Program-made: the position numbers and the translations under genes
In this document: positions 25,500 through 48,224 of the stretch, piece after piece
Numbering within the stretch: the first letter of the stretch is position 1
How the letters are laid out: each line of letters opens with the position of its first letter
Assembly: GCA_009840575.1 (NCBI GenBank)
Contig: VXNO01000066.1
Span: forward strand, 1 to 60,362
DNA: 60,362 bases
Reading direction: 5' to 3'
Origin: Chloroflexota bacterium
GTDB lineage: Bacteria > Chloroflexota > Anaerolineae > Aggregatilineales > Phototrophicaceae
The notes under the pieces: generated by a model
The model's input: the letters and a program-made list of their open reading frames with translations, nothing else
The model's database searches: none
Told to the model about the DNA's origin: nothing

Positions 25500-25535
25500 C
25501 AAAATCATTTTGCCGCGCCTACTACTGTTTCATCC

Positions 25536-25564
25536 TTGACAGGGTGGGCAAATGACGCTAGGCT
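25536..25564 (+). promoter_or_regulatory. putative promoter of leader peptide-lysC
   Basis: A perfect -35 TTGACA (25536-25541), a 17-base spacer and a weak -10 TAGGCT (25559-25564). Transcription would begin near 25571, ahead of the ATG at 25596 of the Thr/Met leader peptide. Confidence 0.5.
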
Positions 25565-25568
25565 CACA

Positions 25569-25691
25569 ATGAAGCAACGGACGGCGGACGGAAGTATGAG
25601 TTTGTATAGCGCGACGACAGGCACAACTAGCAGCATGATGATGACTATGATGCGCATAGCCGCGCGCCGTGGGGGTTTCCGCTTGTTGTAA
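25569..25691 (+). CDS. Thr/Met-rich leader peptide (putative attenuator peptide for lysC)
   Basis: A 40-codon ORF (31 codons if the in-frame ATG at 25596 is used) ending with TAA at 25689-25691. Its middle reads TTGTTSSMMMTMM, giving five Thr and five Met within 13 codons (25614-25652). The next gene is aspartate kinase, whose pathway makes Thr and Met. An intrinsic terminator (25713-25750) separates the two. This layout matches classical ribosome-mediated attenuation as in enterobacterial thrL, but is an independent sequence. The promoter position favours the ATG at 25596. Known: family logic of thr leader peptides. Inferred: regulation here. Confidence 0.7.
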   Translation: MKQRTADGSMSLYSATTGTTSSMMMTMMRIAARRGGFRLL

Positions 25692-25712
25692 GTCCGAGAC
25701 AGACAAAGCAGC

Positions 25713-25750
25713 AAAAGGGCGTGTGGAGAACCTCCAGACGCCCTTTTTTT
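25713..25750 (+). terminator. strong intrinsic terminator/attenuator before lysC, with alternative antiterminator
   Basis: AAAAGGGCGT (25713-25722) pairs with ACGCCCTTTT (25738-25747); an inner TGGAG/CTCCA adds five pairs around loop AAC after one mismatch; seven T (25744-25750) follow. The segment GGCGTGTGG (25718-25726) of its 5' arm can instead pair with CCGCGCGCC (25660-25668) inside the leader ORF, nine pairs with two G-U, which would prevent the terminator. The antiterminator strand begins eight bases after the last Met codon of the Thr/Met cluster. Confidence 0.85.
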
Positions 25751-25781
25751 GTTTATTGGCAGGAAAGACGAGGGCAGGGCA

Positions 25782-27227
25782 ATGGCAAGACTAACCTTGA
25801 AATTCGGTGGCACGTCGGTCGGGTCGCCAGCGGCAATCGACCAGGTGGCGCAGATAATCTGCGAGCAGCGACGTCAGGGACACTTGCTGGCGGTGGTTGT
25901 CTCGGCGATGTCGGGCGTTACCGACCAGCTTCTCCAGGCGGCGGCTGCGGCAGCGGCGGGCGACCAGCCTGCCTATCAAGGCATCAATGCTGAGCTGCTA
26001 GCCCGCCACGAAGCTGTCATCAACCAGCTTGTTGCTAGTCCCGCGGCGCGTGAAGAAGCGCTGGAACCCTTGCGCGACTTGTTGCGGCAGCAGTTGGAAT
26101 TGTGCGATGCGGTGCGCATCCTGGGAGAAGCCAGCCCGCGCATCACGGACGCGATTGTGTCCTTTGGCGAGCGGCTGAGCAGCCGGGTGATTGCGGCGGC
26201 GTTGCGCGAACGCGGGGTCGATGCGCTGCAAGTCGATTCGCATACTTGCATCGTAACCGACAACAACTTCCAGCAGGCTGAGCCGCTGTGGGCAGAGACG
26301 GAGGCGCGCCTCCGCCGCCAGTTGCTGCCCGCCTACGAAGCCGGGCGCGCGCTCATCATCACAGGCTTCATCGGCGCGACGCCCGATGGCACCGTGACGA
26401 CGCTGGGGCGCGGCGGCAGCGACTTTAGCGCGTCTATCTTCGCTGCCTGCCTGGATAGCGACGAGCTGCATATCTACACCGATGTCGAAGGCGTGATGAC
26501 CACCGACCCGCGCCTTGACCCCCGCGCGCGTGTGCTGCCCTATGTTTCTTACCGAGAAATCGGCGAACTGGCATTTTATGGCGCGAAAGTGCTGCACCCC
26601 AAGACGGTGCAGCCGATTATCAATCGCGGCATCCCCATGCGCGTGCGCAGCACTTTTCAGCCTGCCCGCCAAGGCACGCTCATCGGCGAGCGCACCCGAC
26701 CCAGCGCCACCATCATCAAAGCTGTAACCAGCATCCGCGATGTGTCTATGCTGACGGTCAGCGGCCGCGGCATGTTGGGCGTGCCGGGCATCGCCGGGCG
26801 CACCTTTATCGCCACCGCCCAAGCCGGCGCCAGTATCCTGATGATCTCGCAATCTTCCTCCGAGCAGAGCTTCTGCTTCACCGTCGTGGACCCGCTGGCG
26901 GAGCGGGTGAAAGCGGCTGTCGAGGCGGAGCTACGGCGCGAGATTCAGCACAAAGCCATCGATAGTGTAGAAACACTGCCCGACATCGTCATCATCACAG
27001 TGGTGGGCAGCGGCATGCGCGGGACGCCGGGCGTGGCTGGCCGCGTATTCTCGCTCTTGGGCGAGCAGGAAATCAATGTGCTGGCAATCGCGCAAGGCTC
27101 GTCCGAATGCAGCATTTCTTTTGTAGTCTCCGAAGCCGACCTGGAAAGAGCGGTTTACGAACTGCACTCGCTGGCTCTGGAAACTGCCGCGATTGATCGC
27201 GCTAACGGGCAGGGCAGTTATTACTAG
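25782..27227 (+). CDS. lysC: aspartate kinase
   Basis: A 481-residue monofunctional aspartokinase, first step of the Lys, Thr and Met pathway. The N-terminal amino-acid kinase domain has KFGGTSVGS, the VSAMSGVTD loop, GFIGATPDG and TLGRGGSDFSA; two ACT domains follow (for example VSMLTVSGRGMLGVPGIAG and IVIITVVGSGMRGTPGVAG) that normally bind Thr or Lys for feedback inhibition. The ATG at 25782 is family-like (MARLTLKFGG); an in-frame TTG at 25749 overlaps the terminator. It is preceded by a Thr/Met leader peptide and attenuator, so expression is probably coupled to amino-acid supply. Ends overlapping a convergent hydrolase gene by four bases. Confidence 0.95.
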   Translation: MARLTLKFGGTSVGSPAAIDQVAQIICEQRRQGHLLAVVVSAMSGVTDQLLQAAAAAAAGDQPAYQGINAELLARHEAVINQLVASPAAREEALEPLRDLLRQQLELCDAVRILGEASPRITDAIVSFGERLSSRVIAAALRERGVDALQVDSHTCIVTDNNFQQAEPLWAETEARLRRQLLPAYEAGRALIITGFIGATPDGTVTTLGRGGSDFSASIFAACLDSDELHIYTDVEGVMTTDPRLDPRARVLPYVSYREIGELAFYGAKVLHPKTVQPIINRGIPMRVRSTFQPARQGTLIGERTRPSATIIKAVTSIRDVSMLTVSGRGMLGVPGIAGRTFIATAQAGASILMISQSSSEQSFCFTVVDPLAERVKAAVEAELRREIQHKAIDSVETLPDIVIITVVGSGMRGTPGVAGRVFSLLGEQEINVLAIAQGSSECSISFVVSEADLERAVYELHSLALETAAIDRANGQGSYY

Positions 27228-48022: not shown

Positions 48023-48052
48023 GCTATTTGTCGCGCCACTTGGAACTGCGGC

Positions 48053-48157
48053 ACTCATCAAGAGCGAGTGAGAGAACCGGCTCTTTGAACTCGCGGCAAC
48101 CCCCGAAGCGCTCGGGACGGTGCTAACTCCGGCAGGGTCGACACTCTGGCAGATGAG
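48053..48157 (+). promoter_or_regulatory. SAM-I (S-box) riboswitch
   Basis: CTCATC (48054-48059) pairs with GATGAG (48152-48157) as P1. The conserved core is recognised in order: ATCAAGAG, GAGAACCGGCTCTTTGAA, CGGCAACC, then GGTGCTAACTCC and GGCAG before P1 closes. These match the S-box consensus (kink-turn and GCUAAAUCC-like J3/4 region). It stands directly before metK, whose product is SAM, so it should give feedback repression. The core TGCTAACTCC has C where A is usual. The expression platform follows at 48173-48224. Confidence 0.92.
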
Positions 48158-48172
48158 CGTATCCTACCGATG

Positions 48173-48224
48173 GACTTCTGCGCCCGCTGCCCCGCATGGC
48201 GTTTTTTGTTGCCGCAGAAAGGTC
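48173..48224 (+). promoter_or_regulatory. expression platform hairpin of the SAM riboswitch
   Basis: GAC-TTCTGCG (48173-48182 region) can pair with CGCAGAA (48213-48219) and, after a two-base bulge, GTC (48222-48224). The 3' arm includes the AAAGG ribosome-binding site of metK, so closure would block initiation. The loop holds CGCC/GGCG followed by six T (48202-48207), so a weak terminator is also possible; translational control is favoured. Confidence 0.5.

Follow-up and report, generated by a model that had tools for sequence, protein, structure and literature searches.

The lysC gene of a Chloroflexota metagenome-assembled genome, from a family in the class Anaerolineae, is very likely preceded by a ribosome-mediated transcription attenuator, which would set the synthesis of aspartate kinase according to how much threonine and methionine is available. 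The gene lies in a stretch of 60,362 nucleotides, analyzed as a whole and referred to here as the window. The attenuation reading, proposed in an initial annotation of this DNA, gains support from the conservation of the alternative RNA structures and from their predicted folding, which follows what attenuation would require; that the leader senses both threonine and methionine is what we infer from sequence.

The lysC locus and its leader reading frame

25536-25564, plus strand: sigma-70-type promoter, TTGACA (25536-25541), 17-nt spacer, TAGGCT (25559-25564), from sequence and orthologue comparison
25596-25691, plus strand: leader ORF of 31 codons, MSLYSATTGTTSSMMMTMMRIAARRGGFRLL and stop, with a weak ribosome-binding site, GGAAG, just 5' of it, from the ORF list and an ATG aligned in the four closest relatives
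25614-25652, plus strand: Thr/Met control codons, 5 Thr and 5 Met in 13 codons, from the sequence
25782-27227, plus strand: lysC, aspartate kinase of 481 aa with AA_kinase and ACT domains, from the ORF and domain/model matches

Along the plus strand the promoter, the leader ORF, a spacer, a GC-rich terminator and a ribosome-binding site succeed each other before the lysC ATG at 25782. Among the 78 orthologue upstream regions, 73 contain a TTGAC located 90-210 nt 5' of the leader stop, and in most of them TANNNT comes 17 nt later; TTGACA-17-TAGGCT was not listed by a consensus promoter scan. The downstream gene had been named as aspartate kinase, and domain and model matches agree, the best model matches of the protein being PRK06291 and the kinase half of the bifunctional kinase/homoserine dehydrogenase I. 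The next gene being convergent, lysC is apparently monocistronic. On the minus strand, a 102-codon open frame (25505-25813) runs antisense to the whole attenuator. No match was returned by a plasmid collection searched with the leader DNA.

The leader reading ends with ATTGTTSSMMMTMMRIAARRGGFRLL and a TAA stop (25689-25691). As to its start, relatives point to the ATG at 25596 rather than to that at 25569, which lies at or 5' of the predicted transcription start. Thr codons begin at 25614, 25617, 25623, 25626 and 25644, and Met codons at 25635, 25638, 25641, 25647 and 25650. This clustering, already remarked upon in the initial annotation, holds in the sequence and against shuffles: the best Thr plus Met count per 13 codons is 10 for any ORF in the 400 bases upstream of lysC, the maximum being 6 in 5000 dinucleotide shuffles of the upstream region and 7 in 1181 other 400-base tiles of the window, both strands included.

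In the 34 members of the genus, codons -21 to -13 from the stop comprise 149 Thr, 121 Met and 36 others, so that 270 out of 306 are Thr or Met; Ile accounts for 5 of the 306. All four third bases occur in the Thr codons (ACT 76, ACC 39, ACG 26, ACA 8), indicating that the amino acid is what is kept. Distinct single-base codon changes within the run are silent or exchange Thr and Met in 34 of 57 cases, versus 32% expected (binomial P 1.5e-5). As judged from these comparisons, the control codons are under selection as codons.

It is unlikely, in our view, that the attenuator senses threonine only, the AUGs being alternative starts or codons suited to the hairpin P1 described below. Such a reading would fit the Thr-dominated or Thr-only leaders found for some loci of another family of the class (f34) and for locus L156, as well as the location of Met codons -13 and -14 within the 5' arm of P1. 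Met is, however, spread through the run, also upstream of P1, where it makes up 65 of 170 codons at -16 to -20, and the two amino acids replace each other at given positions: at codon -14, 21 of the 34 sequences carry Met and 13 carry Thr; moreover, the Met codons are separated by ACN codons, which leave no room for ribosome-binding sites. We thus retain sensing of both amino acids, with methionine the less certain of the two, because Met codons double as start codons.

Alternative RNA structures and ribosome position

Conservation of helices was scored on the 34-sequence genus alignment, as percentage of cells paired.

25645-25672, plus strand: hairpin P1 (anti-antiterminator or 1:2 helix), arms 25645-25655 and 25662-25672, 92.6% of cells paired in 34 sequences
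25670-25680, plus strand: segment 2, the antiterminator 5' arm, within the leader ORF end, from pairing comparison and folding
25683-25714, plus strand: inner antiterminator helix, 25683-25689 with 25708-25714, across the leader stop codon, 95% of cells paired
25717-25750, plus strand: intrinsic terminator, stem 25717-25743, A-U extension and U-run to 25750, 96.5% of cells paired
25725-25736, plus strand: antiterminator 3' arm, comprising the end of the terminator 5' arm, the loop and the start of the terminator 3' arm, from pairing comparison and folding

The 5' arm of P1 falls within the last Thr/Met codons, while its 3' arm extends into the beginning of segment 2; its fourth pair varies among U-G, C-G and U-A. 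The intrinsic terminator expected before lysC is indeed present, with about 15 pairs and one internal mismatch ahead of the U-run, and features 8 double-change cells, a figure reached in 1 of 500 shuffles; a simple terminator scan did not list it. The antiterminator as a whole (25670-25680 with 25725-25736, plus 25683-25689 with 25708-25714) has 93.1% of cells paired, with little double-sided covariation within the genus, where shuffles were not exceeded.

Because sequences of the genus differ too little for the antiterminator to covary strongly, genera were compared with each other. Segment 2 and the terminator change together, as GGAGGUUUC/GAAAACCUCC in the host genus, GGGGGA/UCCCCC in genus g3 and GGAGAGU/ACUCUCC in genus g21. 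When each genus is represented by a single sequence, cognate pairing of segment 2 and terminator averages -20.8 kcal/mol versus -18.0 (sd 0.86) for permuted pairs; the evidence is strong, not extreme, since the lowest of 2000 cross-genus permutations reached -21.1 kcal/mol. An antiterminator which overlaps the terminator and is mutually exclusive with it is thus found, its covariation being weak within the genus and better across genera.

The antiterminator originally proposed was a different one, CCGCGCGCC (25660-25668) paired with GGCGTGTGG (25718-25726). The 9-base complementarity is there in the window, forming eight to nine pairs at -14.7 kcal/mol, and some partial transcripts of the window do fold in this way. 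It is not conserved, however: 65% of cells are paired in the 34 sequences, versus 92-97% for the three conserved helices, four of the nine pairs are broken in 14 to 29 of the 34, shuffles are not exceeded, and outside the genus the pairing is no better than in shuffled sequence. We regard it as hardly credible that this is the functional structure; the conserved pairing is instead that of 25670-25680 with 25725-25736, and the upstream hairpin P1 has been added to the model.

Pairing of RNA also bears on the end of the leader peptide, which is strongly conserved throughout the genus as GGF.LL followed by the stop. This would fit a peptide that arrests its own ribosome in response to a small molecule, a nascent-chain arrest of the TnaC or Erm leader type. 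In other genera, however, the C-terminus reads FRLP, FRLS, CTP, LLR or otherwise, and base pairing with the terminator is kept. Conservation of GGAGGTTTC is explained by RNA pairing, rather than by nascent-chain arrest, which we deem very unlikely.

Growing transcripts of 75 leaders were folded with a mask in place of the ribosome; masks and class thresholds were set by us, and the outcomes are predictions. For a ribosome placed on the Thr/Met codons, the antiterminator ranks first in 73, 72 and 68 of the 75 leaders with RNA exposure ending 10, 8 and 6 nt short of the U-run, respectively. For a ribosome at the stop codon, these exposures yield the antiterminator in just 3, 3 and 1 of the 75; extending the exposure of the 3' arm to 2 nt short of the U-run makes the terminator the best fold in all 75. 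At full length, all 75 fold as terminators, whether the ribosome sits at the stop codon or is absent. Even in the stalled state the terminator is still the more stable full-length fold in 65 of 75 leaders; antitermination would therefore be kinetic.

In the mechanism that we propose, RNA polymerase would transcribe the leader with a ribosome close behind. Were charged tRNA-Thr and tRNA-Met both plentiful, the ribosome would reach the stop codon and cover segment 2, allowing the terminator hairpin to form and leaving lysC untranscribed. Were either charged tRNA scarce, the ribosome would stall on the run and open P1, and the freed segment 2 would pair with the last part of the terminator 5' arm, together with the loop, before the 3' arm is complete, resulting in read-through into lysC. 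As Thr and Met codons are intermixed, shortage of either amino acid should suffice; lysine, the third branch of the pathway, would not be sensed.

The position of the conserved codons seems to match what ribosome geometry would demand. Thr or Met occupies codons -13, -14, -15 and -16 in 33, 34, 34 and 32 of the 34 sequences, declines upstream, and stops abruptly at codon -12 (Arg/Pro). With the A site at -13 to -18, a ribosome would reach into P1 and leave segment 2 free; further on, it would cover segment 2.

The terminator, by itself, could as well serve a riboswitch, a T-box or a protein sensor, the leader ORF being incidental. Against this, the leader is short, its ORF is conserved as a protein, and an Rfam search found no match at the lysC leader, including RF00506 Thr_leader (at the gathering threshold), the RF00168 lysine riboswitch and T-box, while the same search does detect a SAM riboswitch before metK in the window. 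We consider such alternatives highly improbable. The SAM riboswitch (RF00162, 87 bits) spans window positions 48052-48159, directly before metK, whose ORF begins at 48196; together with the lysC leader, this riboswitch may give the host genome two different RNA devices for reading methionine supply.

Distribution in Anaerolineae and sister leaders

A comparison of homologous loci had been suggested as a check on the attenuator. In the family, covered by 98 genomes, leader ORF, Thr/Met enrichment, promoter and terminator are kept together in 75 of 78 lysC orthologue upstream regions, 74 of which have a Thr plus Met count of at least 6, L100 having been added by eye; L087, L103 and L124 have lysC and no leader. 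Within the genus the element is found in all 34 genomes, with a strong match 5' of lysC in each. No such leader precedes the second aspartate kinase paralogue (36% identity) at 12 loci, where the best count is 4, nor, in the host genome, hom, the thrC candidates or the second aspartate kinase.

The element was not found at lysC orthologues of other families of the same order. It reappears elsewhere in the class, with Thr/Met codons in family f28 (L160 and L167), Thr or Thr/Met in f34 (seven loci) and Thr only in f21 (L156), each leader with a terminator and a segment pairing into it. No Thr/Met leader was found at lysC orthologues of the phylum outside Anaerolineae. Either the attenuator is old in Anaerolineae and has been frequently lost, or it has arisen more than once.

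When the whole class was searched with the covariance model, many weak matches were obtained. Four of them (L207, L210, L211 and L216) were rejected as leaders, being repetitive coding repeats read in another frame; others were discarded as unrelated terminators. Read in one frame, these four repeats show extended Thr/Met runs ahead of a terminator, which can mislead searches for leader peptides.

One weak match corresponds, in the genus, to a sister leader ending with FRYYYYPNCIDRSG and a stop, which precedes an aroH-type chorismate mutase and tyrA. Its counterpart in the host genome is:

G000:C30, about 150 bases before the chorismate mutase at 790 (L233): Tyr (and Phe) leader of aroH-tyrA, ASFGYYPYPNGIVRSGSLLAGN and stop

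A Tyr/Phe attenuator of the same build is also present at L220-L226, L229 and L230. In the same folding procedure, all 10 Tyr leaders examined are predicted to form the antiterminator with a stalled ribosome, at exposures of -10 to -2; at full length all 10 form the terminator, with the ribosome at the stop codon or without a ribosome. With lysC and aroH-tyrA leaders carrying codons suited to their genes, the leader-terminator design is found for at least two pathways in one genome.

In other families of the class, further leader ORFs with a run of Tyr or Phe/Tyr codons, each with a terminator, were observed before tyrS (FNYYYG; L203:1501-1637) and before chorismate mutase (FAFYFYGYFYFYAG at L206:1501-1616, and also L205:1501-1621), the gene names for L203 and L206 being read from the protein. 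A sequence just 5' of trpE, GGTGGCACCGCGGG (L277, G000:C89), resembles the T-box antiterminator motif, so that the host genome seems to have both tRNA-sensing T-boxes and ribosome-mediated attenuators.

The Anaerolineae architecture, made of control codons, a hairpin and a G-rich ORF end pairing into the terminator, might be a platform in which codons are swapped between pathways: a mixture of Thr and Met at lysC, and Tyr/Phe at aroH-tyrA and possibly also at tyrS. In that case, the lysC leader would be the first known natural Met-codon attenuator, with either-or integration of two end products of the aspartate pathway. To this broader proposal we give an even chance. A single base separates ACG from AUG, which allows the run to shift between Thr and Met and stay functional; dual control would thus be easy to evolve, and is testable by sequence alone. 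If correct, these findings would add Chloroflexota, whose gene regulation has been little described, to the phyla in which textbook attenuation operates, and provide a case of two amino acids from one pathway being read in one leader. They would also suggest a tight coupling of transcription and translation in these uncultured bacteria, and give a function to short ORFs that annotation ignores.

Comparison with known attenuators

In enterobacteria, the thrL leader contains Thr and Ile codons and precedes thrABC. The lysC leader resembles the thrL attenuator (RF00506) in having a leader peptide with Thr codons, alternative hairpins, an intrinsic terminator and an aspartate kinase gene downstream. 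It differs in that Thr is combined with Met in place of Ile, and a lone lysC takes the place of thrABC; phylum, sequence and structural positions also differ. With the L-box (RF00168) found before lysC, it shares the control of lysC aspartate kinase by a 5' leader RNA; the L-box is, however, a lysine-binding RNA, and none was found at the host lysC leader.

A survey of RNA control in Actinobacteria assigns Met to the S-box, Lys to the L-box and Tyr to T-boxes, and names attenuators elsewhere for His, Thr and Phe, with no Met-codon attenuator (PMC1262725); in Shewanella, Thr_leader is found at thrA and the lysine riboswitch at lysC (PMC2659441). Our literature search found neither Thr/Met leaders nor Chloroflexota attenuators; its coverage of subscription journals is thin, and such absence is unproven. 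The initial annotation did not recognize control of lysC by Thr and Met from any described system, a fair statement in view of the Rfam and literature searches. Ribosome-mediated attenuation is an old and familiar mechanism; the Thr and Met pair, the lysC target and the Chloroflexota lineage are apparently undescribed.

As far as sequence allows, the leader appears to have the features expected of a member of the attenuator class. Control codons, anti-antiterminator, antiterminator, terminator and the predicted logic of ribosome position are those of the classic trp, his, leu, ilv and phe attenuators of gamma-proteobacteria and Actinobacteria, and of Shewanella leuA. Unlike these amino-acid attenuators, the lysC leader has Thr plus Met as control codons, and its stop codon lies 3' of segment 2, so that a terminating ribosome would cover segment 2 from behind.
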